A DNA stretch of 64,000 nucleotides from Methanolobus vulcani (GTDB taxonomy: Archaea > Halobacteriota > Methanosarcinia > Methanosarcinales > Methanosarcinaceae): NCBI RefSeq assembly GCF_006546655.1, contig NZ_VIAQ01000008.1, positions 124,001 to 188,000 of the forward strand. The letters run 5' to 3'. Positions 4,892-21,908 of the stretch are shown here, in pieces. Made by a program: the position numbers and the translations under genes. The notes beneath the pieces are model-generated. The model saw nothing but the letters and a program-made list of their open reading frames with translations, did not search any database and was not told where the DNA came from. Within the stretch, counting starts at the first letter, position 1. Each line of letters starts with the position of its first letter.

Positions 4892-4960
4892 GTTATCATT
4901 TATCGTAATGTTTATTAGGTAGTTATTACGTTCTAATTTCTACGGTTATATTCTAACCGT
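4892..4960 (+). promoter_or_regulatory. promoter and operator of the S-layer/ABC importer operon (shared regulon site 1)
   Basis: GTTATCA (4892-4898), ATCGTAA (4902-4908), TATA box TTTATTA (4911-4917) and a palindrome, ACGGTTA-TATTC-TAACCGT (4942-4960), which is a perfect 7-bp inverted repeat centred near the expected start of transcription. The same order and spacing occur before 13944, 14843 and 19334. A repressor bound here would block transcription initiation. The leader to the first gene is about 160-170 bases. Confidence 0.7.
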
Positions 4961-5115
4961 TGAGATTTAACTCATTTGTCGTATTATCGACACTGAACTG
5001 TCAGTGATGAAAACAGATTAAATTAATTTCAGAAATCTAGAATATAGGCAATCGTTGCTATCATCATATTTCATTTACTGAAGATAGATAAAACTCCGGT
5101 TGGTGGTGAATCTAA

Positions 5116-6429
5116 ATGAAAGAGATAACAGGAAAATTACTACTTATATTTGTAGTTTCATTTCTTATGTTGATACCTGCAAGTGCGTCAGATGTAACGT
5201 ATCAATTAAGAAGCAGTGTTTATGACAATACCGATTCTTCTATAAAATCAGGGGACTTCTATTGGGATGCAAACAGTTTTTCAGGATTCTGGTACCAGAT
5301 AAAACCTGGTCTTTCGAGTGAGGTCCTTTATTTTCATAATAGCGCAAATTCTTCATCCACTTTTCAGCTTGGTGATAAAGTTGTTGAAGATGATCTCTAT
5401 TATGTGAGTAAACCCCAGCTAAAAACTAGAAAGATAGGTGGCTCGGACGATGCTGCAACTTATATTGTCGATGATGTTGACCTGGAAAAATACTATCTTA
5501 TGGGTTTCTTTGGTTCCATGTATCTTGCAATGCCCGAGAATCCTTCAGTTTTGTCAGATGGATGTAAACCTGATAAGATTGCAAAAATATTGATGGAGCA
5601 GAAAAGTGAAGACAAAAAGCAGATGTTTACAGGGGAGGAATGGAAACTTGCCGGTGGATGGTCTCTTGTAGCACAACAAATAGATGTGGAAGGCAACAAG
5701 GTCTGGGTGGAGCTCAAAAAGAATGGTGAAACGATTGACTCTGATGTTATTTCAGCAGAAGTAAATCTCACAAGACCTCAAAGAACATATCTCTACAAGG
5801 ACAGTGATGATTATCCTGTATTCTATTGTTATGTTGATTCCATATTCATGGGTCAGACTGATGAATTTGTGGTTTTTAAATATGCCTTCTTGAGGGGTGA
5901 TATCACCTGTATCGAAAGCGGGGGTACCTATGGTGCATTCGATGTTACTGGTTTTGAGGTTCCTGCTGTAATGAACGGCACAAACTATGCCGGAAGTGGT
6001 AGTGGAACAGTTCTCAATACAGGTGATGCTGCATTGGTAATGTCCAGTAACAACGATATAACCCTGGATCCTGATAAGATCATCGACCTTTACGGTAACA
6101 TGTATCTTAAGACGGAAAACACAAAGGGTTCCTGCTTGAAAATGACCCTCTGGAAAACATGCACTATTACAGTTGCAGATTCGGTTGCCAGTGAAAAGGA
6201 TACTGAAGAAGATACCATTGAAGATGAGGCCGAGGATGTAGCGGTCATAGATATGGCTGCAAAAGAAAGTGAAACATCATCATTTACCTCCAAAGAAAAT
6301 ATCGACTCCGCAACTTCAGAAAAAGAATCTACATCTGATGTAGAAAGTTCCATGAAGCTACCAAGATTTGGATTATTAGTTGGTGCACTGGGGATAATTG
6401 CAGTATTGGTATTTAGAAAAAGGATATGA
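5116..6429 (+). CDS. S-layer-related surface protein with one duplication domain and C-terminal anchor
   Basis: 437-residue exported protein. Residues 1-25 are a signal peptide. About 30-355 form one S-layer-family duplication domain (DUF1608 type, of which Methanosarcina S-layer proteins carry two). Residues 360-412 are an acidic Ser/Thr/Glu linker, and 415-437 a membrane anchor ending in FRKRI. It therefore faces the pseudoperiplasm. A single domain makes it too short to be the main S-layer protein. It is the first gene of the transporter operon, 14 bases before the first binding protein, so a role as a surface gate or docking protein for the imported ligand is inferred. Confidence 0.75.
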   Translation: MKEITGKLLLIFVVSFLMLIPASASDVTYQLRSSVYDNTDSSIKSGDFYWDANSFSGFWYQIKPGLSSEVLYFHNSANSSSTFQLGDKVVEDDLYYVSKPQLKTRKIGGSDDAATYIVDDVDLEKYYLMGFFGSMYLAMPENPSVLSDGCKPDKIAKILMEQKSEDKKQMFTGEEWKLAGGWSLVAQQIDVEGNKVWVELKKNGETIDSDVISAEVNLTRPQRTYLYKDSDDYPVFYCYVDSIFMGQTDEFVVFKYAFLRGDITCIESGGTYGAFDVTGFEVPAVMNGTNYAGSGSGTVLNTGDAALVMSSNNDITLDPDKIIDLYGNMYLKTENTKGSCLKMTLWKTCTITVADSVASEKDTEEDTIEDEAEDVAVIDMAAKESETSSFTSKENIDSATSEKESTSDVESSMKLPRFGLLVGALGIIAVLVFRKRI

Positions 6430-6443
6430 ATTGAGGTGGCTAG

Positions 6444-8174
6444 ATGAAATTGAACAAAAAAGTCATTTCATTTTTTTTATCAATGATGCTTATCATTTCT
6501 GTGTTCCTCTTGCCGGCAACGGGCTCAGAGAATGAAGAGAAGCAGAACAGAGTATTTACATCAAGCTGGAGTCAACTAACAACGGCAGACTCTGGCTTTC
6601 CATCCCCTTTTACATTCTACCCAAGAGGAGATGGTTACATTATGATGAGTTACTGTTTTGACACACTCATATGGCCTGATGAGAACGGCGAATTCATAGG
6701 ATTGCTTGCGGATTCGTGGGAAAGCTCTGCGGATGGTATTGAATGGACCTTTTATCTAAGAGAAAATGTCACATGGCACGATGGAGAACCTTTCACGGCA
6801 AATGATGTTGTTTTTACTATTAATTATATGAAAGAAAAAGCCCATGTTAGTCCAGTCGGTTCAAGCTGGTATAACACAGCGATCATAGACAACGTTAAAG
6901 CACCTGATGACCACACTGTTATCATAACGCTCAAGCAACCCTATGCCCCTTTCATGCAACTGGTTCTGGATGTCATACCAATCATGCCTGAACATATATG
7001 GAAAGATGTCTCTGATCCCAGTACATACATGGAAGAGGATGCAGTTGTCGGCACCGGACCTTTCATTCTGGAAGACTATGATAAGGAACAGAAATCCTAC
7101 AAATACTCTGCCAACAAAGATTATTTCCTTGGAGAACCAGTCATTGATACACTTATCTATGTACAGACATCTGATCCTATCCTTTCGCTAAAAACGGGAG
7201 AGGTCGATGAGTCCAGTCTTTCGTTTGACCAGGTGCAGGCTTTGTCTGACCAAGATAACCTGAAGGTTATCAGTGGGCCAGGATATCATGTTTACCGACT
7301 TAGGTTTAATATCCCTTCAAATGCGATACTCAATGATACTGATGTCCGCAAAGCCATCTATTATTCCCTTGACTGCGAAGATATAATGAGCAGAGTGCTT
7401 CATGGAGGAGGAGTTGTGGGCAATCCTGGATATGTACCACCCTACTCTAAATGGTATTATCCCGGTGTCACAAAGTATGCCTATGATCCTGAAAAGGCAA
7501 ACCAGATGCTTGATGATGCAGGATATCAGAATAAAGATACGGATGGCATCAGAATTGATCCGGACGGTAACAGACTCGAATTCCAGTTATTGTATCCAAC
7601 AGAACAGCAAAGCCAGAGACTGGCTGAGCTCATTCAGACTTACTTTAAAGAAGTTGGCATAGGTATCATCCTGAAACCCGGGGATAGGATGACAGTGGAT
7701 GGTCTGGTCGGATCAGGCAATTTTGAAATGGCAATCTACACTCACGCTACAGCCACAGAACCAGGGAATATGCTGAACTCATTCCCCACATCAACTGGAT
7801 GGAACAATTCTGAATTCATGTCCCTTGCGACTGAACAGATGGTAACAATGGATGAGGAAAAGCGTAAGGAACTCGTGGATCGTATGCAAGTCCTCATAGC
7901 AGATAATGTACCTACAATTCCCGTCTTTTACCGGGACATGTACAGCGCCTGCAATCAGGAAAAATTTGACGGTTTCTTCTATACACCTGAGGGTATAGCA
8001 GGCGGCATACCGGTAGAATACAACAAGCTTGCATTCATCTACGGAAATTGGAACGGCGAAAGTACTGAAGCTACAGAAGATACCAGCACCAATTCAGCAG
8101 ACAGTATAGGCATTTTCGGTTCGGTGGCTGTACTTGCATCTGCTTTCTTACTAAGGAAATACAGTCAATCATGA
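6444..8174 (+). CDS. family-5 solute-binding protein of a peptide/nickel-type ABC importer (copy 1)
   Basis: 576-residue extracytoplasmic binding protein (SBP_bac_5, the DppA/OppA/NikA/CntA fold). It has a signal peptide at 1-26, a binding domain at about 40-530, a Ser/Thr linker, and a C-terminal membrane segment ending in LLRKYSQS. It lacks a lipobox and so is probably anchored by the C terminus, an archaeal arrangement. The family binds peptides, nickel-histidine or metallophore complexes; the ligand cannot be read from sequence. GAGGTGG before the ATG is the ribosome binding site. A close paralogue follows directly, which suggests two ligand specificities for one permease. Confidence 0.88.
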   Translation: MKLNKKVISFFLSMMLIISVFLLPATGSENEEKQNRVFTSSWSQLTTADSGFPSPFTFYPRGDGYIMMSYCFDTLIWPDENGEFIGLLADSWESSADGIEWTFYLRENVTWHDGEPFTANDVVFTINYMKEKAHVSPVGSSWYNTAIIDNVKAPDDHTVIITLKQPYAPFMQLVLDVIPIMPEHIWKDVSDPSTYMEEDAVVGTGPFILEDYDKEQKSYKYSANKDYFLGEPVIDTLIYVQTSDPILSLKTGEVDESSLSFDQVQALSDQDNLKVISGPGYHVYRLRFNIPSNAILNDTDVRKAIYYSLDCEDIMSRVLHGGGVVGNPGYVPPYSKWYYPGVTKYAYDPEKANQMLDDAGYQNKDTDGIRIDPDGNRLEFQLLYPTEQQSQRLAELIQTYFKEVGIGIILKPGDRMTVDGLVGSGNFEMAIYTHATATEPGNMLNSFPTSTGWNNSEFMSLATEQMVTMDEEKRKELVDRMQVLIADNVPTIPVFYRDMYSACNQEKFDGFFYTPEGIAGGIPVEYNKLAFIYGNWNGESTEATEDTSTNSADSIGIFGSVAVLASAFLLRKYSQS

Positions 8175-8208
8175 AATAGAAAAATTCAGTAATTACAGGA
8201 GGATAAAA

Positions 8209-9942
8209 ATGCAAAAAACTGAAAAAATTATCTCATTAGCACTATCTGTGCTAATTATCAGTTCAATACTCTTCTTACCGGCAACAGCTTCAGAAACCAG
8301 TGATGTGCAGCAGGAAAGAGTGTTTACGACAACCATGAGCGGATATACAACATTGGACGGAGGATTCCCCTCTCCTCTCGCATTCAATACAAGAGGGGGA
8401 GGTTATGTAATGACAAGCAATTGTTTCGATACACTTGTCTGGCCTGACCAGAATGGGGAATTTATAGGATTACTTGCTGAGTCATGGGAAAGCTCTAAAG
8501 ATGGTATTGAATGGACCTTTAATCTAAGAGAAAATGTCACATGGCATGACGGAGAACCTTTCACGGCAGAGGATGTTGTTTTTACTATCGATTACATGAA
8601 AGACAAATCTCTGGCCACTTCCATTGAGGCAAGCTGGTACTATACACATTTAATAGAAAGTACTGAAGCTCTTGATGAACACACGGTCTTGATAACACTT
8701 AACCAGCCTTATGCTGCATTTATTCCATTGGTTGCAGGTGTCATACCCATCATGCCAGAACATATATGGAAGGATATCCCCGACCCGAAGAAATATACGG
8801 AAAAGGAAGCTGCCATTGGTACAGGTCCCTTCATTCTTGAAGATTATGATATGGATCAGAAATCCTACAAGTTTTCTGCTAACAAGGATTACTTCCTTGG
8901 AGAACCTATCATTGACACGCTTATCTATATTCAAACATCCGATACTTTGCTTTCTCTGAAAACCGGGGAAATTGATGAGTCCAGTCTTACATTTGACCAG
9001 GTACAGGCTATTGAAGAATCGGACAATTTAAAAGTTATTAGTGGCCCGGGATATCGGGTTTATCGTCTCAGATTCAATATTCCTTCAAATACCATACTCA
9101 ATGATATAGATGTACGCAAAGCCATGTCTTATTCCCTTGATTGCGAAGACATAGAAAGCAGAGTGCTGCACGGAGGAGGAACTCCCGGTAATCCCGGATA
9201 TGTAGCACCGTACTCTAAATGGTATAACCCAAATGTAATGCAATATGCATATGATCCTGAAAAAGCAAACCAGATGCTTGACGAAGCTGGTTATCAGGAA
9301 AGAGATAAGGATGGTATCAGACTTGATGCTGAAGGCAACCGTCTGGAATTCCAGTTGTTACATTCTTCTGATCAGCAAAGCCAGAGACTTGCAGAACTCG
9401 TACAAACGTATCTGGAAGATATTGGAATCGGTATAGTTCTTAAATCAGGGGATATGCAGACTGTTGAAGGCCTGGTTAGCGAAGGTAACTTCGATCTGGC
9501 AATTCATATGCACGGCACAACAAATTATCCTGGAAGAATGTTGAATCCCCTACCCTCAATAACAGGATGGAACAATTCTGAATTCGTGGCTCTTGCAGAA
9601 GAGCAAATCGTAACAGTAGATGAGGAAAAGCGTAAGGAACTTGTGAATCGTATGCAAGTTCTCATAGCCGATGAAGTACCCACTATTCCCATAATGTACA
9701 AGGACCTCTTTAGTGCCTGTAACCAGGATACGATTGACGGTTTTTTCTATACACCCGACGGCATAGCCGGTGGTTCATTTATGGAATGTAACAAGCTTGT
9801 CTTCATTTACGGAACCTGGAACGGCGAAAGTACGGAAGCTGCAGAAGACATCAGCACCAATTCTGCTGATGGCATAGGCATCCTCGGTTCGGCAGCTGTG
9901 CTTTTATGTGTCTTTTTATTAAGGAGAGACAAAAAACTGTAA
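8209..9942 (+). CDS. family-5 solute-binding protein of a peptide/nickel-type ABC importer (copy 2)
   Basis: 577-residue paralogue of the preceding gene, colinear over its full length including the signal peptide and the C-terminal membrane anchor. The strongest conservation is in blocks such as NVTWHDGEPFTA and NLKVISGPGY. Differences are concentrated in scattered stretches such as the segments after PSPLAF and NKDYFLGEP. A good ribosome binding site (AGGAGG) precedes the ATG. It arose by tandem duplication and is kept intact, so both copies are presumably used. The gene lies 34 bases after copy 1 and is translationally close to the first permease. Confidence 0.88.
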   Translation: MQKTEKIISLALSVLIISSILFLPATASETSDVQQERVFTTTMSGYTTLDGGFPSPLAFNTRGGGYVMTSNCFDTLVWPDQNGEFIGLLAESWESSKDGIEWTFNLRENVTWHDGEPFTAEDVVFTIDYMKDKSLATSIEASWYYTHLIESTEALDEHTVLITLNQPYAAFIPLVAGVIPIMPEHIWKDIPDPKKYTEKEAAIGTGPFILEDYDMDQKSYKFSANKDYFLGEPIIDTLIYIQTSDTLLSLKTGEIDESSLTFDQVQAIEESDNLKVISGPGYRVYRLRFNIPSNTILNDIDVRKAMSYSLDCEDIESRVLHGGGTPGNPGYVAPYSKWYNPNVMQYAYDPEKANQMLDEAGYQERDKDGIRLDAEGNRLEFQLLHSSDQQSQRLAELVQTYLEDIGIGIVLKSGDMQTVEGLVSEGNFDLAIHMHGTTNYPGRMLNPLPSITGWNNSEFVALAEEQIVTVDEEKRKELVNRMQVLIADEVPTIPIMYKDLFSACNQDTIDGFFYTPDGIAGGSFMECNKLVFIYGTWNGESTEAAEDISTNSADGIGILGSAAVLLCVFLLRRDKKL

Positions 9943-9964
9943 AATGCAAAGGAGACATACGGCA

Positions 9965-10960
9965 ATGAACAGGAAAAAAACAGGATATATATTGTCCAGA
10001 GGAATGGAATATGCCTTTACATTCTTTTTGATCATTGCCATTAATTTTTTTCTTCCACGTATAATGCCAGGTGGTCCGTTGCTCATCATCACAGGAAGCC
10101 AGAATGCAGATTTGCCGGTTGTTCTGGACGAAGAGACAAAGTACAAACTAATGGACTACTATAACCTCAACGACCCACTTCACATTCAATTCATACATTA
10201 TCTGGCAGATGCTGCACACCTTGATTTTGGATATTCCTTTTTATACAATGTTCCGGTAATGGATATCATTCTTGGAAGACTGTCCAGGACAATCCTGCTT
10301 ATGGGGTCAGCATTGGTTTTCTCAACGATTTTTGGCATAGTACTGGGAATTGAATCCGGATGGAAACGAGGAAGTAAACTCGATAATGCATTGCTTACGA
10401 TAGTGCCCGTATTCAGGTCCATGCCTGCATTTTTCCTTGGAGCCATTATGATATTTATATTTGGATACAGAATGGGGTGGTTCCCATTGTCTGGTGCTCT
10501 CACCCCATACATGGATTATGCAGGCATGTTTGATCACGCAAGTGACATCCTTTCCCATCTAACATTACCCATGCTTTGTCTTTCGGCTTTCGAAATGCCA
10601 GGAACGTACCTGCTTATGAGGAATGTCTGTGTCCAGCAACTGGAAAGACCTTATGTCCTTATGGCTACTGCCAGAGGACTGAAGGACAGAAGTATCAAAA
10701 AACATGTGCTTATCAATTCTATTGCACCTGTGATAAATCAGATAGCTGCTATGCTGGGATTCATGGTAGGGGGTGCTGTGTTCATAGAAACTGTTTTTTC
10801 ATACCCTGGCATGGGAATGCTTGTCTATAGCTCATTTATTGAGAGGGACTACCCTGTACTTCAGGGAGCTTTCATAGTCATATCACTTTGCGTGCTGGCT
10901 TGTAACTATGCTGCAGATATCACATGTTCATATATCGATGGCAGGGCAGGGCAGGGATGA
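9965..10960 (+). CDS. ABC importer permease, DppB/NikB type
   Basis: 331-residue inner-membrane permease (six membrane segments) of the binding-protein-dependent transporter family. The EAA loop, the contact to the ATPase, lies around residues 215-235 (ARGLKDRSIKKHVLINS). I prefer the ATG at 9965, which follows AAAGGAG by a normal distance, over an upstream ATG at 9944. It pairs with the next permease to form the channel. Peptide, nickel and metallophore importers share this family, so the substrate is open. Confidence 0.9.
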   Translation: MNRKKTGYILSRGMEYAFTFFLIIAINFFLPRIMPGGPLLIITGSQNADLPVVLDEETKYKLMDYYNLNDPLHIQFIHYLADAAHLDFGYSFLYNVPVMDIILGRLSRTILLMGSALVFSTIFGIVLGIESGWKRGSKLDNALLTIVPVFRSMPAFFLGAIMIFIFGYRMGWFPLSGALTPYMDYAGMFDHASDILSHLTLPMLCLSAFEMPGTYLLMRNVCVQQLERPYVLMATARGLKDRSIKKHVLINSIAPVINQIAAMLGFMVGGAVFIETVFSYPGMGMLVYSSFIERDYPVLQGAFIVISLCVLACNYAADITCSYIDGRAGQG

Positions 10961-11787
10961 AAATGCACAAAAGAATAATTTCAGAGGGAATTAAAAGTCC
11001 AAAAGGAACTGTCGGGCTCATCATGCTATCTTTATTTATTTCAATGGCCTTTGCAGCCCCAATGCTTGCACCCTATTCCCCTTCGGATGTATCAAGCAGC
11101 CCTTTACTTGCTCCTGACGGAGATCATCTGTTGGGTACTGACGATGTAGGCAGGGACATATTCAGCAATTTACTCTACGGTGCAAGGACATCACTTACTG
11201 TTGCTTTTGTAGTCTCTCTCGGAGTTTTGGTGATTGGTACTCTTGCAGGGGTATTTTCAGGATACACTGGCGGCAAAATTGACAGGGTGATGATGCGGGG
11301 AGTAGACATATTCCTGATGATACCTGACCTGCCACTCATCCTCATCCTTGCAGCCTACTTACGCCCTAGCATATGGAACATTATATTCATTCTCACTATC
11401 ATGGGCTGGCCAGTGGGGGCCAGGATCACACGAGCACAGACAAGGACACTAAGGATATCCGGACACGTTGATTTTGCCAGGGTATCCGGAGCCATGGATT
11501 GGTACGTTATCAAAAAACACATAATTCCGGATCTTTACCCGATCATGATCACCACCGTTGTTATGCAATCTATCCGGGCCATTCTCTCGGAATCAGGACT
11601 TGCATTCCTTGGTCTTGGAGATCCTTCGTACCCGAGCTGGGGAACAATGATAAAATATGCAATTGCATACCCTTTAGTGTTCTTTACCGATGCCTGGATG
11701 TGGTGGCTGCTTCCTGCAGGGATATGCATTACAATGCTTGTTCTGGGCTTTGTTTTCATTGGACAGGCTATGGAAGGTGATAAATAA
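10957..11787 (+). CDS. ABC importer permease, DppC/NikC type
   Basis: 276-residue second permease subunit. It has an N-terminal membrane segment, then five further ones, with the EAA loop near residues 165-195 (RVSGAMDWYVIKKHIIPD). The start at 10957 gives the ATGA overlap with the previous stop codon that is typical of translationally coupled subunits; GGGCAGGG is the ribosome binding site. It forms a heterodimeric channel with the preceding gene product. Confidence 0.9.
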   Translation: MKMHKRIISEGIKSPKGTVGLIMLSLFISMAFAAPMLAPYSPSDVSSSPLLAPDGDHLLGTDDVGRDIFSNLLYGARTSLTVAFVVSLGVLVIGTLAGVFSGYTGGKIDRVMMRGVDIFLMIPDLPLILILAAYLRPSIWNIIFILTIMGWPVGARITRAQTRTLRISGHVDFARVSGAMDWYVIKKHIIPDLYPIMITTVVMQSIRAILSESGLAFLGLGDPSYPSWGTMIKYAIAYPLVFFTDAWMWWLLPAGICITMLVLGFVFIGQAMEGDK

Positions 11788-12740
11788 TGACAGTACTTGA
11801 TGTCCAGGGACTAACAGTAGATTTTTCAACAAAGGGGGGCAAACATCACATTCTAAAGAATGTAGCCCTCAATATTGGTAAAGGCGAGATCGTGGGTTTA
11901 ATTGGTGAATCCGGCTCCGGTAAATCAACACTTGCTATGACTATTCTTGATATCAATTCCAAAAACAGGGAAATGTATGGAAATATTCGTTTCAGGGGTG
12001 AAGAACTCAGCAATATCAGCAAGGAAAGAATGCGAAAATTACGTGGCAAGCATATCGGTTTTGTTCCACAATCTTCTATGAACGCGCTCAATCCCCTTAT
12101 AAAAATTGAAAAACAGTTCACTGAAACCATAAAAACTCATACGGAAATGCCTGCGCAACAAATGTTTGAGCTGACCAGCAAAACACTGGAAATGGTAGCA
12201 ATTGATCCATCGAGAACAAACTCATTTCCCTATGAATTTAGTGGAGGGCAGCGCCAGAGAATAATGATAGCACTTTCTATGCTTCTTTCCCCGGAACTTA
12301 TCATCGCAGATGAACCCACGACTGCCCTGGATGCAACAGTACAGTCAAGAATTATTGATTTGCTGAAAGAAGTTGTAGAGCAAAAACATACTTCAATGCT
12401 TGTAATATCTCATGACCTGCATACCATTTCCAGAATTTGTGACAGGATATATATCATGTATGGAGGAAGAATCGTGGAGGTTGGCAGTACGGAACAAATA
12501 ATTCATCATCCAAAACATCCCTATACGCAAAAACTTCTTTCTTCTAGGATACCCTTGATGGCTGAGCCTGTGAAAGTAAAAGGCATATCCGGAAAACCAC
12601 CGTCTACCCTGATAAAGCATAGCAGATGTGAATTTCTGGAAAGGTGTGACAGGGCTTCAGTCATATGCGAGGCAAAAAGACCCCCGGAATGCATAGGCAA
12701 TGTAAGAGTAGCATGTCATTTTGGTGAAGGACATGAATGA
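11787..12740 (+). CDS. ABC importer ATPase, DppD/NikD type
   Basis: 317-residue ATP-binding subunit. Walker A is GESGSGKST, the signature is FSGGQRQR, Walker B is LIIADEP, and the switch His is in ISHDLH. The C-terminal tail (about 255-317) is the oligopeptide-type extension with four or five Cys (CEFLERC, VIC, PPEC, VAC), seen in Dpp/Opp ATPases and in some proteins binding a metal cluster. The start overlaps the previous stop (TAATG), with GGAAGGTG upstream. It works as a heterodimer with the next gene product. Confidence 0.92.
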   Translation: MTVLDVQGLTVDFSTKGGKHHILKNVALNIGKGEIVGLIGESGSGKSTLAMTILDINSKNREMYGNIRFRGEELSNISKERMRKLRGKHIGFVPQSSMNALNPLIKIEKQFTETIKTHTEMPAQQMFELTSKTLEMVAIDPSRTNSFPYEFSGGQRQRIMIALSMLLSPELIIADEPTTALDATVQSRIIDLLKEVVEQKHTSMLVISHDLHTISRICDRIYIMYGGRIVEVGSTEQIIHHPKHPYTQKLLSSRIPLMAEPVKVKGISGKPPSTLIKHSRCEFLERCDRASVICEAKRPPECIGNVRVACHFGEGHE

Positions 12741-13515
12741 GCAAGAACTTATAAGAATGGACAACCTCATCAAAGTGTTCAAAAAGAACTTTTTCTCCAG
12801 GAAAAGCTCAGATGTCGTAGCACTTGATGGAGTTTCTCTTTTGTTGAACAAGGGAGAGATACTTGGCATTATAGGGGAAAGTGGATGTGGCAAGACTACT
12901 CTGGCAAAATTGTTACTGGGACTTTTAAAGCCAGACTCTGGAACAATAACATTTGCAAATCTCAAGAATGCTGAATATGATGTTCGTAAACCTGTAGTTC
13001 AGGTTATCTTCCAGGACCCTTATGATTCTTTGAGTCATTTAATGACCATTGAAGAGATTGTGGCAGAGCCGTGTATCATAAAGCATGGAGAAGCATATGA
13101 TGCCGATAAAGTGTGCAAGGCTCTTGAATCCGTGGGCCTTACACCGACAGATGAATATCTGAATAAATATCCTCACACCCTCAGTGGTGGGCAGCGCCAG
13201 AGGGTGGCAATCGCCAGGGCTATAGTTACTGAACCTGACATTATAATAGCCGATGAACCCATATCAATGCTTGATGCTTCAATTGGAGTGGATATCCTTA
13301 ATCTCCTTCTTGATATGAATGAGAAAATGGGGGTTACTTTCCTGTTCATTACTCATGATATAGCCGCTGCTGCCTATATCTGTGACAATATCGCAGTGAT
13401 GAAAGAAGGAAAGGTAGTCGAGTATGGCACACGAAAACAGATAATCTCTGGATGTAGGCATAAGTACACATGCACATTGCTCTCCGCAGCGAGAGGGGAA
13501 AATGCGGTAATTTGA
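12733..13515 (+). CDS. ABC importer ATPase, DppF/NikE type
   Basis: 260-residue second ATPase subunit. Walker A is GESGCGKTT, the signature is LSGGQRQR, Walker B is IIIADEP, and the switch is ITHDIA. It is shorter than its partner because it lacks the Cys-rich C-terminal extension, which resembles NikE more than DppF. I take the ATG at 12733 (8-base overlap with the previous gene); in-frame TTG 12721 or GTG 12724 are alternatives. It is the last gene of the importer operon. Confidence 0.9.
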   Translation: MNEQELIRMDNLIKVFKKNFFSRKSSDVVALDGVSLLLNKGEILGIIGESGCGKTTLAKLLLGLLKPDSGTITFANLKNAEYDVRKPVVQVIFQDPYDSLSHLMTIEEIVAEPCIIKHGEAYDADKVCKALESVGLTPTDEYLNKYPHTLSGGQRQRVAIARAIVTEPDIIIADEPISMLDASIGVDILNLLLDMNEKMGVTFLFITHDIAAAAYICDNIAVMKEGKVVEYGTRKQIISGCRHKYTCTLLSAARGENAVI

Positions 13516-13706
13516 AGAACAAAATCAAGTGCTATTATTGGAACAATATGCTGAAAAAGCAAATAGTGATTTTCAATGACACACTTTCTTAAATTGTGCA
13601 AATAGTTTTTTCAGGCATAAGATGTTGATTTGAATTAGTAATCTAGTAGGCTGTTTTGCCGGCTCCGTCAAAAAACAAATCTATTTTTCAAACAGAGATT
13701 TAAGAT

Positions 13707-13776
13707 GTTATTGCAAATCGCAAGATTTATAATTAAGTTTGTCTATACAAAGCAATAGTTAGTTTCCAACCGTTTG
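13707..13776 (+). promoter_or_regulatory. promoter and operator of the CbiX/CfbA gene (shared regulon site 2)
   Basis: ATCGCAA (13717-13723), TATA box TTTATAATT (13726-13734) and operator AGTTAGTTTCCAACC followed by GTTTG (13757-13776). The spacing from TATA to operator is 31 bases. Only the outer half-bases of the dyad are symmetrical here (GTT/AAC), so this is a weaker palindrome than site 1. Confidence 0.65.
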
Positions 13777-13855
13777 TTTGCAACTGTTTAAGAGTATCAG
13801 ATACTTTGACCGGCATTCACAAGGAACTATCAGATAAATGCTGAAACCGAACACT

Positions 13856-13889
13856 ATAGCACAGAATCACTCTGGTAAACCTGTGCTAT
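13856..13889 (+). promoter_or_regulatory. hairpin in the CbiX/CfbA leader
   Basis: ATAGCACAG at 13856-13864 and CTGTGCTAT at 13881-13889 form a perfect 9-bp stem with a 16-base loop, 55 bases before the start codon. It lies in the roughly 185-base untranslated leader predicted from the TATA box. It could affect mRNA stability or be a ligand- or protein-binding leader element. Confidence 0.5.
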
Positions 13890-13943
13890 GTAACACTAAG
13901 GAATCAAAAAATAACATAAACATTAGATAAGGAAGGTACTATT

Positions 13944-14339
13944 ATGAGTGAAAAAATTGGAATTTTGGCTATTGGACACGGAAGCAGATTACCCTACAAC
14001 AACCAGGTTGTCACTGAGATCACTAATATGATATCAGAAGCTCACCCTGAATATATAGTAAAGACAGGCTTCATGGAAAACAGCAAACCTACAGTTGAAG
14101 AGGCACTAATGTCCTTTGAAGGCACAGGAGTAACAACAATAGCTGCTGCACCTGTATTCCTTGCATCAGGTATCCACATTACTATGGACATCCCTGCAGT
14201 TCTTGATCTGGATCCTGAGACAAATGAGGGGGAAGTCGAATTTGATGGACAGAAGGTCAAGATAGTCTATGCCAAACCCCTTGGAAGCGACAAGCTCATC
14301 GCAGATATTATCTTTAATAGAGTACAGGAAGCCCTTTAG
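13944..14339 (+). CDS. cfbA: small CbiX-type chelatase (sirohydrochlorin cobalto-/nickelochelatase, CfbA-like)
   Basis: 131-residue single-domain chelatase. Archaeal CbiX-S/CfbA inserts Ni2+ (coenzyme F430 route) or Co2+ (cobamide route) into sirohydrochlorin and acts as a homodimer. The two metal/substrate His residues are visible: His12 in AIGHGSR and His78 in ASGIHIT. The length is standard for the archaeal short form. AAGGAAGG precedes the ATG. It is alone in its transcript and shares promoter and operator with the ABC importer, the activase and the PadR operon, unlike a plain housekeeping copy. Whether a second copy exists elsewhere in the genome cannot be seen. Nickel and cobalt use cannot be told apart from sequence. 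Confidence 0.85.
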
Positions 14340-14842
14340 TTGTGTCGCTTACGCGGCATTCTTTTTTGTTTTGATTATGGTTTTTATTGGAATTCAGATA
14401 TCAAGGTCAAACAGACCTGATCTTGCACTGGCCATATTTTTCTTAATATTATAAGATTACGCGCAATATCAAGTCGTGTCTGTAATTCACTGACTTTTCT
14501 TATAGGACTGCAAAATTATTTTTAATAAGAGAGGACGCAAACACTTTCACAATAAATCAATCACAATTATGTTGCTTGAATTTAATTTGCATTATATTTT
14601 GAAAAGAACAAAACTGCTAATAATAATTACCAAAGAAGAAGAGCTTTCTGTAAAGCTGTTTTGCAGTCGATGTAAAAAAACAAACCTATTTTTCATACTG
14701 AGATTCAAGATGTTATCACAAATCGTAAGATTTATAATTAAGTATCTCTATACGCAGTAACAGTTAGATTCCAACCGTTTTGTTTTAAACTATTGGTGGA
14801 TAATGAAAGATAATGTAAGATGCATTAACAAAGAGGCAGAAA
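14340..14842. other. intergenic region before the activase gene
   Basis: No gene. A T-rich stretch at 14361-14375 just after the chelatase stop may terminate its transcript. The second copy of the duplicated promoter block is at 14655-14787. Confidence 0.6.
14712..14782 (+). promoter_or_regulatory. promoter and operator of the tandem activase gene (shared regulon site 3)
   Basis: GTTATCA (14712-14718), ATCGTAA (14722-14728), TATA box TTTATAATT (14731-14739) and operator AGTTAGATTCCAACC followed by GTTTTG (14762-14782). The spacing from TATA to operator is 31 bases. Nearly all positions agree with site 2 because the whole block is duplicated. Confidence 0.68.
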
Positions 14843-17800
14843 ATGACAAGTCCTACTCCGAATAATGGAAGAAACACACGTGACTCTGTAGAATTAGATA
14901 AGATGCAAGATTCAGATCCAGAATATAGTCTGGGGATTGACATCGGTTATTCATCAGTGAAGATTGCGCTCATTGATGAAGATAATGATGTTGTTCATAC
15001 GGATTATGTCTTGCATAAAGGAAAGATCAAAGAGAAACTTAATCAAATTATTATAGAACTGTCGGAAAAGTATGATACTGGACCAATAGTAACCTGTGCA
15101 GTAACCGGTAGTGAAAGTAAGTTCTTATCTAACTATGGGGATGTAATTCATATAAACGATGTTTCTGCCCTTATCGAGGGTAGCATCTTAACGAATGAGA
15201 ATATTTGCTCCATAATAGAAATAGGTGGAGAAACTGCGAGATACATCACCGGTTTTGGAAAAAATACCAAATCTAATTTAGAGATTTCAATGAATTCAAA
15301 CTGTGCTGCTGGAACAGGTTCTTTTCTCGAAGAGCAAGTATCAAGGCTCGGTCTGGACATAGAGGATTATTCTTTTTATGCTGCCCAAAGCAAGTCCGTT
15401 CCAAGAATAGCCGGTAGATGCAGCGTTTTTGCAAAAACCGATGTTATTCATCATCAACAGGAAGGTGTTCCTGTAGAAGATATTCTGCAAGGGTTAGCTT
15501 ACGCAGTGGTGAGAAACTATAAGGGAGCTGTTATCAAGAGACTACCTCTGGAAAAACCACTCATTCTGACAGGCGGTGTAGCATTCAATAGAGCAATTGC
15601 CAATGCGTTAAAGGATATCCTGAAGCTTGATGATGATGAGCTTTTCATATCAGAAAAATGTGGAAATATTGCTGCAATCGGTGCAGCAGTGATTGCTAAA
15701 GAAAAGGATTTGAGAATAGACATCTCCAAAATACTGAACATCCTAAAGGATATGAGGATTTCTTCTACGTCAAAAGTCCAAACTGTTAATCTGCCTGCAT
15801 TGGGTCAATTTGGATTAGGTGACAGCGGGAACAAGCACATATGCAAAATCCCTGATAGTTGTAATGATATGACAAACTGCTATCTTGGTGTTGATATTGG
15901 ATCGACCAGTACAAATCTTGTATTGATCGATGAAATGAACGATATAATAGCTTACAGATATCTGAAAACACTTGGGAATCCGAAAAAAGCTGTAGTTGAA
16001 GGTTTAAAGGAATTGAGAGAGGAGTATGGTGACAGAGTAAATATAATTGGGGCAGGTACCACCGGTTCAGGAAGGTATATGATTGCAAAACTTATCGGAG
16101 CTGACCTTATAAAAGATGAGATTACAGCACAAGCAAAAGCGGCAGTTTCTATTGATAGCTCTGTTGATACGGTATTTGAGATAGGTGGCCAGGATTCCAA
16201 GTATATCAGTTTGAATGATGGCATAGTTACCGACTTCCAGATGAATAAAATATGTGCTGCCGGAACAGGCTCTTTCATTGAAGAACAAACAAACAAGTTC
16301 GACATCAATATAGATGAATTCGGTGAGATTGCATTAAAAAGCAATAAACCGGTTTATCTTGGGGAAAGATGCACTGTTTTTATAGAAACAAGCATTGCCG
16401 CCCACTTAGCCAGCGGAACCCGGATAGAAGACATTGCATCAGGACTTTGCTACTCGATAGCAAAAAATTACCTCAACAGGGTCGTAGGTCAGAAAAAAAT
16501 AGGGAACAGGATTTTTCTCCAGGGAGGTATTGCACACAACCAGGGAGTTGTAAACGCCTTCCAGGTGCTTACTGGAAAAGATATTGTCGTACCACCGTTC
16601 TTTAGTGTGACTGGTGCCTATGGAGTGGCTGTTTTGACAAAGGAGGAGATCGGATCGGCAAAGACCACCTTCAAAGGATTCAATATAGAGGAAAACTCCC
16701 TACAGGTAATTAATCCTGAAAAGCCAAATGTTGAATGCAAGGAGAAATCGGAATTTAATGAAATGGTAAATAAATTGATGTTTGAGGATTATGATGGATC
16801 AATAGATCAAAGTAAAAAGACCATTGGCCTTCCGAGAGCTCTTTTTACATATGGGATGTATCCGATGTTCAGTGCCTTTTTCAGGGAACTGGGTTATAAT
16901 GTCGTTCTGTCTGATCCTACCAGTGAAGAAACGATAAGACTTGGTCAGGAATATTCACTTGATGAAATGTGTTATCCTGTCAAACTGATCAATGGGCATG
17001 TTGCAGAGCTGGTAAATAAGAAGGTGGATTATATTTTTTTCCCGGACCTGTATACAGTTGTGCATCCGGGATCTCACACACGTCTGGATTTTGGCTGCCC
17101 CTATATGCAACTTGCATTTAAAATAGTTAACAGGGCAATGGAACTTGATAAAAAGGGTATAGAAATGCTTTCTCCTACCATAGGTTTTAGTCTGGGAGAA
17201 GAATTCATGAGAAACAGTTTCATGGCTCTTAGTAATCAGCTTGGAAAGAGTCCTGATGATACCATTAGTGCTCTTCAGAAGGGAATGCAGGGATTCCATG
17301 ATTTTGAGAAGAGGATGGAACAAATGGGAAAGGAAATTGTCAAAGGTCTCAAACCTGACGAAAAGGCGTTTATATTAATATCAAAAAGCTATGGAGTTGC
17401 TGATCCGGTATTGAATTTGTCCATCCCTGAAAAGCTTAAGGAGATGGGTTACAGGGCACTTCCATTTTACAACTTGCCCGAAGGCGATGTAGCTAATGAA
17501 CATCCTAATATGTACTGGCCTTTCGGCCAGCATATCCTTGAAGCAGCACAGGTTGTCAGAAGTCATCCCAATCTTTATGCAATACTCCTTACTCATCATG
17601 GCTGCGGCCCAGATACGGTATTTTCCCACTATTTCAGAGAAATAATGGCTGATAAACCCTATCTTAACATAGAGGTCGACGAACATTCTTCAGGAGTAGG
17701 TGTTACAACAAGACTTGAAGCTTTCGTGAACAGTTTACAAAATATTCCTACGGAAACAGCAGAAGATATGGATACTTATCTGTCTCAGCTGTCCCATACC

Positions 17801-18922
17801 GATGCTCGTATAAAAACAAGTTTGTATGGCACTCCGAAAAATGCACAGTTTTATCTCCCTGATCTATACCCTTACTCCCAGCTTATCTGTGAGTTACTGA
17901 AAACATACGGGATAGATGCGAAAACACTACCAAAAACAAATGAAAAATCCATAGATGGAGGAAGAAAATACACTGTTACAAATGAATATTTCTCAATGGC
18001 TGCTCTGATTGGGGATGTACTTGCTATTCCCGGAATTCGTGATCGGGATGAATATCAGAAGTTTTTACTGGTCCCTCAATCAGAAGGGGCAGAAGTGGAT
18101 GGACAGTATAACCGCTTTTTGCGAACTGTCCTGGACGAAGAAGGAATCAAAGACGTTAGTATCATCGCTCCGTTCATGGAAGATCTGCTCAATAAGGATG
18201 ATGTTTTTCTCCAAAATGTTTTCCTTATTCTTATTGCAGGAGACATAATCAGGAACACTCCTTATGTTTCAAGGGATAGTTACATGAAAACAGTTCTTGA
18301 CAAGATGAAAAGCGGTCAGCTGAGTATTGAAGTGCTGAAATCAGTGCTTAAAGTTGCCTCCGACGAATGCAGATCCAGAAACTTCGAAAAGAATATTTTT
18401 GCGATTGGGGAGCCAATGATCTTATATAACGATTTCCTGCATAACCACATTTTCGGGGAAATTGAATCCAGGGGTTATCGTGTAGTATGTGCTCCATTCA
18501 GTGAATACATGTGGCAATTATGGAAAGATTTTGCTGATCAGGCAAACGAGGAGAATAGACCAGTATTACAGGCAAAGCTGGATGTGTTCAAAGGCTTTAT
18601 TTCGGACATCTCTAATTCAATATCTGGCTGTAGTCCCTTTGAAAAAGATCTTGATGATCTGATTGTAAGAGCAGATAATACAATGGGTTACTATGCAGGT
18701 GCCTTTGGGAGATATAGGGGGTCGAAAATCCTTGGAGAACTTGAGGGCATGGATGGAGTTATTACAGTTACTTCTATGTATGAGAATACGGGAATCTTGC
18801 TCAATACTCTGCACAAAGGGTTCGAGAACGAAAATAACAAGCCTGTCCTCAATTTGACATTTGATGGCAATAAAAACGAAAATGACGAGTCTAGGGTTGA
18901 ATCATTCCTGTATTACCTGTAA
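14843..18922 (+). CDS. tandem BcrAD/HgdC-type ATP-dependent activase fused to an HgdB-like reductase part
   Basis: 1359-residue cytoplasmic protein. Two ASKHA-fold activase domains (about 28-300 and 347-610) are followed by a DUF2229 domain (about 655-870, with MCYPVKLINGH) and a long C-terminal region (about 880-1330) resembling the HgdB/dehydratase-partner family. Both activase domains keep the phosphate loops (GIDIGYSS, GVDIGSTS) and the two [4Fe-4S]-ligating Cys: C154/C193 and C471/C510. In the family a homodimer holds one cluster and uses ATP to push an electron to very low potential. Here the dimer seems fused into one chain. The target is unknown; 2-hydroxyacyl-CoA dehydration is not expected in methanogens, so another difficult reduction is inferred. 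AGAGG precedes the ATG. Confidence 0.85.
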   Translation: MTSPTPNNGRNTRDSVELDKMQDSDPEYSLGIDIGYSSVKIALIDEDNDVVHTDYVLHKGKIKEKLNQIIIELSEKYDTGPIVTCAVTGSESKFLSNYGDVIHINDVSALIEGSILTNENICSIIEIGGETARYITGFGKNTKSNLEISMNSNCAAGTGSFLEEQVSRLGLDIEDYSFYAAQSKSVPRIAGRCSVFAKTDVIHHQQEGVPVEDILQGLAYAVVRNYKGAVIKRLPLEKPLILTGGVAFNRAIANALKDILKLDDDELFISEKCGNIAAIGAAVIAKEKDLRIDISKILNILKDMRISSTSKVQTVNLPALGQFGLGDSGNKHICKIPDSCNDMTNCYLGVDIGSTSTNLVLIDEMNDIIAYRYLKTLGNPKKAVVEGLKELREEYGDRVNIIGAGTTGSGRYMIAKLIGADLIKDEITAQAKAAVSIDSSVDTVFEIGGQDSKYISLNDGIVTDFQMNKICAAGTGSFIEEQTNKFDINIDEFGEIALKSNKPVYLGERCTVFIETSIAAHLASGTRIEDIASGLCYSIAKNYLNRVVGQKKIGNRIFLQGGIAHNQGVVNAFQVLTGKDIVVPPFFSVTGAYGVAVLTKEEIGSAKTTFKGFNIEENSLQVINPEKPNVECKEKSEFNEMVNKLMFEDYDGSIDQSKKTIGLPRALFTYGMYPMFSAFFRELGYNVVLSDPTSEETIRLGQEYSLDEMCYPVKLINGHVAELVNKKVDYIFFPDLYTVVHPGSHTRLDFGCPYMQLAFKIVNRAMELDKKGIEMLSPTIGFSLGEEFMRNSFMALSNQLGKSPDDTISALQKGMQGFHDFEKRMEQMGKEIVKGLKPDEKAFILISKSYGVADPVLNLSIPEKLKEMGYRALPFYNLPEGDVANEHPNMYWPFGQHILEAAQVVRSHPNLYAILLTHHGCGPDTVFSHYFREIMADKPYLNIEVDEHSSGVGVTTRLEAFVNSLQNIPTETAEDMDTYLSQLSHTDARIKTSLYGTPKNAQFYLPDLYPYSQLICELLKTYGIDAKTLPKTNEKSIDGGRKYTVTNEYFSMAALIGDVLAIPGIRDRDEYQKFLLVPQSEGAEVDGQYNRFLRTVLDEEGIKDVSIIAPFMEDLLNKDDVFLQNVFLILIAGDIIRNTPYVSRDSYMKTVLDKMKSGQLSIEVLKSVLKVASDECRSRNFEKNIFAIGEPMILYNDFLHNHIFGEIESRGYRVVCAPFSEYMWQLWKDFADQANEENRPVLQAKLDVFKGFISDISNSISGCSPFEKDLDDLIVRADNTMGYYAGAFGRYRGSKILGELEGMDGVITVTSMYENTGILLNTLHKGFENENNKPVLNLTFDGNKNENDESRVESFLYYL

Positions 18923-18956
18923 TGATAACTCTGAATAAACTGATTTCAAGTATGAA

Positions 18957-19038
18957 TCCGGATATCCCGGATATAGCAGAGAACAAGAATCCAGTATAGT
19001 TGCCTGCATGCCAATTATGGATTTGTTCTCTGTTTTCC
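18957..19038 (+). terminator. long stem-loop after the activase gene
   Basis: A short hairpin TCCGG/CCGGA (18957-18971) is followed by CAGAGAACAA (18977-18986) and TTGTTCTCTG (19023-19032), a perfect 10-bp stem. The inner AATCC/GGATT can extend it after a bulge, and the stem is followed by TTTT. It lies 35-110 bases after the stop codon. A transcription terminator or mRNA 3' stabilising element is the simplest reading. Confidence 0.55.
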
Positions 19039-19227
19039 ATTTTAACATATTTACATTCTTGATTGGCTTTTAAGAAAAATGTTTTTTCTCTACGATTATT
19101 ATCAAGAAGATTCAGAGATGGAGAATAACGTGTGGAAGGGACATCATGAAGGTTAGAATATACAGAAGATACATCAATGATAAAAATATGATTTTGATAG
19201 CAAAAAAGATGGCACATCTTAGAAATG

Positions 19228-19289
19228 ATAGCAAAGTTTATTACGCTTCACTACCTATAAGGAACAATGGTTAGATATCAACCGTTTGG
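19228..19289 (+). promoter_or_regulatory. promoter and operator of the PadR operon (shared regulon site 4)
   Basis: ATAGCAA (19228-19234), TATA box TTTATTA (19237-19243) and operator GGTTAGATATCAACC followed by GTTTGG (19269-19289). The spacing from TATA to operator is 32 bases. The GGTT/AACC halves are 7 bases apart, as in site 1. This site suggests autoregulation of the PadR gene. Confidence 0.65.
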
Positions 19290-19333
19290 TAAAAAACCGT
19301 AACCTTATAATATTTGGCAAGTAAGTGTTCAAC

Positions 19334-19813
19334 ATGAGTAATATATGGAAATTTACACCGGAAAGTGGGAAGGAAAGGGGACTACTTACAGCTCTGGTTC
19401 TTCATTTACTTGAGATGGGGCCAAAATCAGGTTATGATCTGCTAAAAGAAATAGCTGAAAAAACGGGTGGCTCCTGGACCCCAAATAAAGGTACATTGTA
19501 TCCTCTCTTAAAATCCCTTGATGAAGAGGGAGTTATTCGGGTTAAAGAAATCGGCAAGCGTTCTAAAAGAATTTATGAACTAACGGATACAGGCAAAGAA
19601 ACCATCACAAATATCAGGAACATGAAGAGTCAATCTACGGCACGCGTAAATTTTTTTAAAGACATGCATTTCGAAATATTTGGTACAGAAAATCAGTCTC
19701 TAGTTAGCCTCCTGATGGAAATGAGATTTTATGTGGAAGATCTTCCCCAAGAGAAAAAAGAAAGAGCAATAGAGATTTTGGAGGCTACTTTCGAGGAAAT
19801 AAAGAAACTTTGA
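19334..19813 (+). CDS. PadR-family transcriptional regulator
   Basis: 159-residue winged-helix regulator. The PadR domain is at about residues 14-85 with the typical SGYDLLKEI and NKGTLYPLLKSLDEEG stretches. A C-terminal helical dimerisation part (about 95-159) includes a segment rich in Glu and Lys. The start is taken at ATG 19334, in the same frame as an upstream GTG at 19325. PadR proteins usually repress by binding a dyad over the promoter. This gene carries such a dyad itself (19269-19283) and is the only regulator directly behind one, which makes it the best candidate to control the four related promoters. The signal it senses is unknown. Confidence 0.85.
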   Translation: MSNIWKFTPESGKERGLLTALVLHLLEMGPKSGYDLLKEIAEKTGGSWTPNKGTLYPLLKSLDEEGVIRVKEIGKRSKRIYELTDTGKETITNIRNMKSQSTARVNFFKDMHFEIFGTENQSLVSLLMEMRFYVEDLPQEKKERAIEILEATFEEIKKL

Positions 19814-19861
19814 ACATAATCACTTGATGTATTTTATTTGTAATGTAATGAGGATTCCAGT

Positions 19862-20413
19862 ATGTCTGAAGAAATAAAGGATAATATGAAATTTAAACAA
19901 GATATTTTCATAGTACCTGTAGGGATAATTAAAAATGATCTTAAGGCCCCACCTCTTGTTGCTGGAGATGACGGGTTAAAACTGAATGATGCTTGTGATT
20001 CTGCAATTACTAAATTGAATGATTCCAGTGACAGGATATCTGAAATAATCCTTACAGACGTGTCTACTGACCTTCTGGAAGGTATTGAAGATTATTCTCA
20101 TGCAATGATTATTTACTGGGGACATGAAATCACAGATGCTGCCCGGAAACTTAAGAAAGTCCATCCTGCTGGTCTAAAGGATTATCCATTAAAAGGTATT
20201 TATTCCACTTGCAGTCCAGCCAGACCAAATCCGATTCTCATGACAATTGTAAGGATTATAAAAATAACAAATAATGGGATACTTGTTTTTGGTCTTGATG
20301 CAATTGACAACAGCCCGGTTTTGGATATCAAACCATATGTGCCTGATTTGTATCCTCAGGAAGATGTCATGATTCCTGAATGGATGGAACAGATTATGGA
20401 GAAATTTAGATAA
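19862..20413 (+). CDS. TrmO/TsaA-family methyltransferase-like protein
   Basis: 183-residue protein with the TsaA/TrmO (YaeB) fold, a beta-barrel SAM-dependent family. TrmO N6-methylates t6A37 in tRNA. The family signature is seen as CSPARPNPI at residues 117-125, compared with the usual RSPxRPNPIG, and HPAG near 101-104. The Gly after PNPI is Leu here. The gene lies 48 bases after padR and 24 bases before the FmdE gene in the same transcript. Divergence at the signature and the operon context leave room for a substrate other than tRNA. Confidence 0.75.
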   Translation: MSEEIKDNMKFKQDIFIVPVGIIKNDLKAPPLVAGDDGLKLNDACDSAITKLNDSSDRISEIILTDVSTDLLEGIEDYSHAMIIYWGHEITDAARKLKKVHPAGLKDYPLKGIYSTCSPARPNPILMTIVRIIKITNNGILVFGLDAIDNSPVLDIKPYVPDLYPQEDVMIPEWMEQIMEKFR

Positions 20414-20437: not shown

Positions 20438-21244
20438 GTGGTCTATGGAACATACGAAAATACAGGAATGGCTTTTTGTTCAGGAATCTTTAATGATCAG
20501 GATATCGAAATTTTGAAAGACAAACCCCGTACTAACTTTACATCGGCGATTAAAAAAATGGATGCTACATCCTGTCTAATAAAAACCGCCGAAATACACG
20601 GTCATTTTTGTCCTGGAAGTGCATTGGGCGTAATGGCTTCATTGTATGGTCTGAGTCTTCTCGAAAATGAAGTGATCGAGTCAGATGGTATTATGGAAAA
20701 CCTGCTTGCGATTGTTGAAGTGAATGCATGTTTTGCTGATGGGATCCAGGCGGTTTCGGGCTGTACGCTGGGGAATAATTCTTTGATTTACCGTGATCTG
20801 GGAAAACATGCAGTAACATTTGCAATCCGTGGAAAAGAGAAAGGTGTGCGTGTGAAGGTTCTTCCAGAGTTTAAAGAGTATATAGAAGACTCAGTTCCTG
20901 AGTTTTATCCTTTGATGGAAAAGGTTATCGTCAAACGTCAAGGAAGTTCGGAGGATGAAAAAAAATTCAAGGAAACAGCACGAGAGGCTGCATTTTCCAT
21001 GACAAAAATTCCTTTTGATAAACTGTTTTCAGTTGAGACTACTGTACCGGATATACCAGACTATGCTCCTATAACCGATTCTGTAATATGCCCTGAATGT
21101 GGAGAAGTAGTAATGGCTTCGAAAGTTTGCAAGTCGGGATTAAAGAAAGGGATGTGTTTCATGTGCAGTGGGCACTACTCAGAAGTTGAAGGTAAAGGGA
21201 TTGTTGAAAAATCCTCGGTGATAATAAAAGGCAATGATTGTTAG
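20438..21244 (+). CDS. FmdE-family protein with C-terminal zinc ribbon
   Basis: 268-residue protein. The FmdE domain is at about residues 40-200 with the HGHFCPG signature (His54, His56, Cys58). A C-terminal four-Cys zinc ribbon lies at about 217-250 (CPECG ... CFMC). FmdE was first described beside molybdenum formylmethanofuran dehydrogenase genes, but its biochemical role is unclear; metal or cofactor binding is suspected from the conserved His/Cys. The start is GTG 20438, supported by AGGAAGG seven bases upstream. It sits between TrmO-like and methyltransferase genes, an arrangement that suggests a common metal- or cofactor-linked task rather than formylmethanofuran oxidation, since no fmd/fwd subunits are nearby. 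Confidence 0.82.
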   Translation: MVYGTYENTGMAFCSGIFNDQDIEILKDKPRTNFTSAIKKMDATSCLIKTAEIHGHFCPGSALGVMASLYGLSLLENEVIESDGIMENLLAIVEVNACFADGIQAVSGCTLGNNSLIYRDLGKHAVTFAIRGKEKGVRVKVLPEFKEYIEDSVPEFYPLMEKVIVKRQGSSEDEKKFKETAREAAFSMTKIPFDKLFSVETTVPDIPDYAPITDSVICPECGEVVMASKVCKSGLKKGMCFMCSGHYSEVEGKGIVEKSSVIIKGNDC

Positions 21245-21284: not shown

Positions 21285-21908
21285 ATGAAAATATGTAGAA
21301 CTCAATGCCCTTCGGAAAGACGTAATTCTCATCACAGAGGAAAGGAAAGTAGTTTTTGGATGCATGATCCTGAACTTATTTTTAATGAACTTGACCTTAA
21401 AAAAGGTGAGGTTTTTCTGGATTTCGGATGCGGAACAGGAGATTATTCAATCCATGCTGCCGAAAAAATAGGTGAAACAGGTCTTGTGTACGCTATAGAC
21501 ATTAAAAAAGAATTAATCGATAATCTGGTTCAGAGGACTGAGAAAGCGGGCCTGGAAAATTTAATAGCTATTGTTAGCGATGCCCGCGAACAGCTTCCCT
21601 TTGAAGATAAATCTATTGATCTGTGTTTGATTTCTACGGTCCTTCACACAATGAACCTTGAAGATGCAGGAAAGACGATTTTTACAGAAATCGGACGTGT
21701 TTTGAAACCGGGAGGCAGGTTGATCATCATAGAATGCAAAAAAGAAGATTCGAAGTTTGGACCTCCGTTAAGCATGCGTATTTCCCCTGATGAAATGGAA
21801 GAATACGTTTACGCATCTGATTTTGAAAAGAGCAATATTGTAGATCTTGGATATAACTACATGATTAAATTCGTATCAATGAAAGACAATTCAGGAGTGC
21901 ACGGCTGA
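21285..21908 (+). CDS. class I SAM-dependent methyltransferase (UbiE/MenG-like)
   Basis: 207-residue methyltransferase with a Rossmann-type SAM domain at about residues 25-165. Motif I is LDFGCGTGDY (45-54), with an acidic residue after the second strand (AIDIKKE) and GRVLKPGGRLIIIE later. The N terminus holds Cys4, Cys8 and a His-His pair, which might bind a metal. The substrate is unknown; small molecules such as a cofactor, quinol or metalloid are typical of the family. It is the last gene of the padR transcript, 40 bases after the FmdE gene. Confidence 0.82.
   Translation: MKICRTQCPSERRNSHHRGKESSFWMHDPELIFNELDLKKGEVFLDFGCGTGDYSIHAAEKIGETGLVYAIDIKKELIDNLVQRTEKAGLENLIAIVSDAREQLPFEDKSIDLCLISTVLHTMNLEDAGKTIFTEIGRVLKPGGRLIIIECKKEDSKFGPPLSMRISPDEMEEYVYASDFEKSNIVDLGYNYMIKFVSMKDNSGVHG

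Follow-up and report, generated by a model that had tools for sequence, protein, structure and literature searches.

Four promoters in a 64,000-nucleotide stretch of the Methanolobus vulcani genome (contig NZ_VIAQ01000008.1, positions 124,001 to 188,000; hereafter, the window) raise the question of whether they are read by one regulator and, if so, by which. They precede an operon for an S-layer protein, binding proteins and an ATP-binding cassette (ABC) importer, the nickelochelatase gene cfbA, the gene of a 1359-aa tandem activase, and the padR-trmO-fmdE-methyltransferase operon. According to the original prediction, all four share one arrangement and define a regulon controlled by PadR, and direct reading of the sequence finds this arrangement at each of them. 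We conclude that the four sites are very probably operators of the PadR protein encoded at 19325-19813, which would repress its own operon, the activase (or reductase, see below) and the importer.

Architecture of the operator

At each of the four promoters, ATMGYAA-NN-TTTATWA is followed, 28-30 bp past the start of the TATA box, by a 21-bp imperfect dyad of the form AAYRGTT-N7-AACCGTT (site 1 opens with T instead). Pattern searches of the 2.92 Mb source genome (G000) yielded four exact matches to the strict dyad GTTAKWTWYYAACCGTT and no site with a single mismatch; allowing two mismatches gave nine, a number similar to that of a reversed-pattern control. The exact motif is thus confined to the four sites, in line with the original expectation that it would not be scattered at random. 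When the TATA box, a gap of 20-30 bp and the box are combined, four matches are found in this genome and none in 294 other genomes sampled from the phylum. The relaxed pattern AACGGTTANNNNNTAACCGTT, with up to three mismatches, does not exceed its control frequency in Methanolobus genomes, so that only the strict pattern, or the pattern combined with the TATA geometry, is informative. A perfect palindrome in G007 (C2:1475314) was rejected as an operator because it has no promoter and falls at the 3' end of a cydB-like gene.

The ATMGYAA..TTTATWA element, which had been counted as part of the shared signature, is indeed present at the four sites but is an ordinary archaeal core promoter, i.e., a B recognition element (BRE) and TATA box. 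The pattern ATMGYAANNTTTATWA, built from the four sites themselves, occurs five times in the source genome (the four sites and one more) and is not exactly preserved in Methanolobus psychrotolerans (G009); for these reasons, we give it no regulatory weight. The promoter features are as follows.

4902..4917, + strand: BRE/TATA core promoter ATCGTAATGTTTATTA of the S-layer/ABC operon
4941..4972, + strand: predicted PadR operator 1, TACGGTT-N7-AACCGTT-N7-AACT; orthologous site in G009
13650..13788, + strand: duplicated promoter segment upstream of cfbA, with BRE/TATA at 13717-13732
13754-13788, + strand: predicted operator 2, in the cfbA promoter, AATAGTT-N7-AACCGTT-N7-AACTGTT
14655..14794, + strand: activase promoter segment, with BRE/TATA at 14722-14737
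14759-14794, + strand: predicted operator 3, AACAGTT-N7-AACCGTT-N8-AACTATT; orthologous sites in G007, G009, G207, G234, G376 and G439
19228..19243, + strand: BRE/TATA core promoter of padR
19266..19301, + strand: predicted PadR operator 4, in padR's own promoter, AATGGTT-N7-AACCGTT-N8-AACCGTA

Alignment of 16 sites indicates that the control site is longer than first reported, with three half-site clusters, RGTT-N7/8-AACNGTT-N7/8-AAC, extending from about the predicted transcription start to about +35. A third half-site, AAC, lies exactly 7 or 8 bp past the central AACNGTT in 11 of the 16 sites, including all four of the window (shuffle mean 0.55; the observed count was reached in 0 of 20,000 shuffles), and GTT lies 7 or 8 bp ahead of it in 13, with no comparable peak at any other spacing in the tested range among the aligned sites. 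Across the Methanolobus sites, the right half-site AACCGTT never varies, whereas the left one is degenerate. The central box is 42-44 bp from the TATA box in 11 promoters and 33-35 bp from it, about one helical turn shorter, in four padR promoters of other families. Judging by its sequence, the operator is most readily interpreted as a pair of adjoining dimer sites with the central palindromic AACNGTT in common.

PadR as the probable regulator across genomes

The winged-helix domain of the encoded protein is clearly recognized (PF03551, 65.7 bits, cutoff 27), and its AlphaFold2 model (predicted local distance difference test, pLDDT, 80) matches LmrR/PadR in Foldseek with probability 1.00. To link the box with this protein, all 4096 words of the form NNN.NNN were ranked over 36 padR promoters of the PadR subfamily from other archaeal genomes; the controls were random pieces from the same loci and 17 intact promoters of other PadRs. 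AACNGTT ranks first, with 31 of the 36 promoters containing it, compared to 1.3 for the mean word and 2.06 for the random pieces, and it is found in none of the 17 control promoters. Together with operator 4 at padR's own promoter, these counts predict autoregulation.

The subfamily includes 31 homologues denoted type S (38-51% identity), and in nearly every case the next gene encodes an ABC ATPase. Those with this neighbor in place of trmO-fmdE still have AACNGTT, which indicates that the motif tracks PadR rather than the activase cluster. The two PadR clades differ at residue 54 of the recognition helix, with WxPNKG in one (N54, type N) and WxPSKG in the other (S54, type S). The operator flanks differ as well: C directly follows AACNGTT in 0 of 8 type-N and 24 of 26 type-S cases, the respective forms being AACCGTT and GAACNGTTC (S54-type sites are also given as GAACGGTTC). 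The type-S clade is widespread among methanogen genomes (L155-L186), with GAACNGTTC operators at its own promoters ahead of the ABC ATPase gene, and probably has a transporter regulon of its own. Given these sequence patterns, PadR is likely to be the binder of the operators.

Within Methanolobus, the intact PadR and the orthologous tandem activase occur only in the source genome, G007 and G009, and sites of the same geometry are present upstream of orthologues in exactly these three genomes. The sites precede the importer, the activase and padR in G009, where the orthologue of operator 1 is a perfect palindrome (L094:16979-16999), and the activase and padR in G007; in both genomes the spacing is retained, so that the anticipated conservation upstream of orthologous genes is borne out. 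A PadR scan of genome contigs matched only M. psychrotolerans, and whole-genome protein searches were far more sensitive. In G018, a frame-broken padR adjoins trmO at a contig end (L095:9189-10067) and its upstream region lacks the AACNGTT box, which looks as though operator and regulator had decayed together.

In other families, a padR orthologue with 61-69% identity is again located between the activase and trmO-fmdE-methyltransferase. The operator precedes padR in G207, G234, G376, G439 and G451, and the activase in the first four of these. In G207, it also precedes a non-orthologous importer operon of the Peripla_BP_2/FecCD type, and in G439 the full three-part operator is found at the gene of a DtxR-like metalloregulator (L195:3852-4361) that adjoins FecCD importer genes and the gene of a protein of the DUF364/DUF4213 heavy-metal-chelation family. 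As far as sequence can tell, the regulon, comprising an importer, the activase/reductase and padR-trmO-fmdE-methyltransferase, is also kept in other families, where the importer is of another type. At the promoters of tandem-activase clusters that lack PadR (contig C3 of the source genome and G322), no three-part operator was detected; two isolated single-flank matches in G322, one at the 3' end of the activase gene and one inside it, we take as chance. Comparative footprinting thus strongly supports the two central claims of the original prediction, namely, a regulon defined by these sites and its control by PadR.

The contig C3 cluster (L096:4752-11078) encodes a paralogous tandem activase with about 60% identity, whose gene overlaps the stop codon of a FecCD/BtuC-type permease gene, at the position expected for the ATPase gene, and is followed by an HxlR-type regulator, a second importer and an S-layer paralogue.

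Gene products and the programme under control

The genes behind the four operators are listed below.

5116..6429, + strand: S-layer-domain surface protein (PF07752), first gene of the importer operon
6444-8174 and 8209-9942, + strand: two paralogous family-5 solute-binding proteins
9944-10960 and 10924-11787, + strand: two permeases of an Opp/Nik-type ABC importer
11787-12740 and 12721-13515, + strand: two ATPases of the Opp/Nik-type ABC importer
13944..14339, + strand: CfbA, sirohydrochlorin nickelochelatase (NF033198, 157.6 bits, equivalog cutoff 120)
14843..18922, + strand: 1359-aa protein with two BcrAD/BadFG ATPase (activator) domains, DUF2229 and a C-terminal half
19325..19813, + strand: PadR-family winged-helix regulator, presumed repressor (PF03551, 3.9e-18)
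19862..20413, + strand: TrmO/TsaA-like protein (TIGR00104, 88.2 bits, narrowly under the curated cutoff of 93.25)
20438..21244, + strand: FmdE-family protein with a C-terminal Cys cluster
21285..21908, + strand: class I S-adenosylmethionine-dependent methyltransferase, last gene of the padR operon

The 1359-aa protein far exceeds the cutoff of TIGR00241 (285.7 bits against 125.4) and contains two PF01869 stretches, i.e., activator-type ATPase domains of the kind found in the double-cubane cluster protein system (DCCP/DCCP-R) and in ATP-dependent benzoyl-CoA reductases. The C-terminal half has no detectable sequence match in PDB; the best fold matches of its predicted model (pLDDT 66, moderate confidence) are DCCP (7yyl, 6eno), BzdNO and MbdON. 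Unlike in those systems, everything is on one chain, and several Cys are invariant across seven homologues. The fold matches suggest that this protein may be a one-chain, ATP-driven low-potential reductase and more than an activase. A single open frame of about 440 aa covers both TrmO and FmdE in two distant methanogens (L145:13931-15256, L146:7021-8343), which suggests a fused protein and a shared pathway.

What this programme achieves is a separate question, on which the original proposal of metal or chelate uptake linked to tetrapyrrole or low-potential redox chemistry is plausible in view of the importer classes, the extra cfbA, the DtxR of one relative and the DCCP-like half, and is kept here as a working proposal. 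Both importer families of the regulon, although unrelated to each other, include metal-chelate or tetrapyrrole members. Taken with the extra nickelochelatase and the DtxR gene of G439 with its DUF364/DUF4213 neighbor, this leads us to give a role in acquiring and processing a metal chelate or tetrapyrrole close to an even chance. A programme that is under PadR control but serves, e.g., to detoxify or import an organic compound that the double-cubane-like enzyme reduces is a serious contender, somewhat short of even. Bacterial PadRs (LmrR, PadR) typically respond to drugs or phenolics, family-5 binding proteins are mostly peptide binders, and the binding protein here scores far under the cutoff of the NikA equivalog model (TIGR02294, 163 bits against 393), so that an assignment to NikABCDE fails; in addition, type-S PadRs adjoin an ABC ATPase of exporter-like context. 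The change of importer to Peripla_BP_2/FecCD in relatives argues against this alternative, as do the metal-related neighbors, namely, DtxR and the DUF364/DUF4213 protein in G439 and the extra cfbA.

Competing explanations and a proposed mechanism

Could another DNA-binding protein bind the boxes, with PadR merely one of the targets? One candidate is a DtxR/MntR-type protein encoded shortly downstream in the window (22070-22648), an unlinked factor being another option; a DtxR gene has an operator in G439, and the GGTTA/TAACC half-site resembles the classical DtxR box, although the spacing of the latter is shorter. The DtxR gene of the window has no counterpart at the G007 and G009 loci, which keep the operators, and in many genomes the boxes accompany padR promoters of this subfamily amid varied neighbors and not those of other PadRs, which makes another binder improbable.

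The four sites might also resemble each other through recent duplication of promoter DNA, without a common regulator. The cfbA promoter (13650-13788) and the activase promoter (14655-14794) are 83% identical over 140 bp, and likeness to other cfbA copies begins just ahead of the cfbA start codon. The source genome has three cfbA copies, the other two in tandem on contig C14 (L147:4000-5100), G007 and G009 have two full-length copies each, none at the padR locus, and two copies are also present in several other Methanolobus genomes. The copied promoter thus brought an extra cfbA into the regulon here. However, the S-layer and padR promoters have nothing in common beyond the core promoter and the operator, which rules out pure duplication for these two sites, and sites are kept upstream of orthologues across species and families amid divergent surroundings; as an account of all four sites, duplication is very improbable. 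An RNA element, such as a riboswitch or attenuator hairpin at the mRNA start, is hardly credible either: the dyad falls within the predicted 5' leader, but left-arm changes are uncompensated, with two pairs lost in six of nine Methanolobus sites, there is no Rfam match within 4500-22200, and a further half-site of the same type follows beyond the dyad, so that, given the fixed AACCGTT, a DNA operator is indicated.

Several observations weigh against operators of a single PadR as read here. Operators 2 and 3 are copies of each other and cannot, on the sequence evidence, be counted as independent cases; the original argument from three unrelated single genes is weakened accordingly, although the sites themselves are real. 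The third half-site is absent at three promoters in G007 and G009. G007 lacks the importer at this locus, which means that uptake does not always belong to the regulon. On the tree, one change accounts for the N54/S54 split, which makes the covariation with the flanks one event, suggestive but not repeated. Finally, the known PadR operators that were checked have ATGT/ACAT (ATGT-N8-ACAT) or TACT/AGTA (TACT-N11/12-AGTA) half-sites (PMC5050560), which are not matched here.

The ATGT/TACT half-sites are found in several PadR members and are not strictly required, and the inverted geometry is similar here. With LmrR/LmrCD of Lactococcus lactis and other bacterial PadRs, the system has in common the winged-helix fold, neighboring transporter genes and, by prediction, autoregulation, as well as inverted half-sites about 11-12 bp apart from center to center and possibly more than one dimer per promoter (PMC5050560). 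It differs in the half-site (RGTT/AACY), the three-part array with a shared palindromic AACNGTT, the position over an archaeal transcription start, and the targets, an importer and metallo-enzymes. The operator of RosR in Halobacterium salinarum consists of two 7-bp palindromic TCGnCGA boxes at a short fixed spacing near the gene start (PMC4287449). Such pairing of palindromic boxes is shared with the Methanolobus PadR site; the sequence, spacing and signal (oxidative stress) are different, and the regulon of RosR is large, whereas that of PadR is small and local. Literature searches found no PadR operators in methanogens, nothing on trmO with fmdE or on this motif, and nothing useful on PadR in Methanolobus.

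The operators, their position over the predicted start, their conservation and their tracking of PadR can be read from the sequence comparisons; dimer binding, repression at the transcription start, ligand release and autoregulation we infer by analogy with what is established for PadR proteins. One PadR dimer would bind the inverted half-sites RGTT-N7/8-AACC and a second the next pair, CGTT-N7/8-AAC, both sharing the central AACNGTT. With this box 42-44 bp from TATA, the dimers would cover the predicted transcription start and the first ~35 transcribed bases and keep the TBP/TFB/RNA polymerase complex from assembling or escaping. PadR would thereby repress padR-trmO-fmdE-methyltransferase, the 1359-aa activase/reductase and the S-layer/binding-protein/ABC importer operon, with the extra cfbA captured in M. 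vulcani when the activase promoter was copied ahead of it. Release of PadR by a ligand would then switch on the import of a metal chelate or tetrapyrrole and its reductive, ATP-dependent processing. The broadest version, a PadR lineage specific to methanogenic archaea in which two dimers sit on a shared AACNGTT, a metal-uptake clade (N54) and a transporter-linked clade (S54) differ in the operator flanks that they read, and the N54 clade controls an undescribed pathway that feeds an imported metal chelate or tetrapyrrole to a one-chain, ATP-dependent reductase of the double-cubane type, is unlikely to hold in every part.

Predicted operators with support across families are available for few archaeal regulons. 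Here, one defined operator is paired with one defined regulator and a short list of targets, with cfbA as a clear case of a gene entering a regulon via a copied promoter. The regulon links genes of the trmO, fmdE and DUF2229 types and makes their signal testable. Altogether, it looks like a previously undescribed gene switch, probably for the import and processing of a metal-containing compound.

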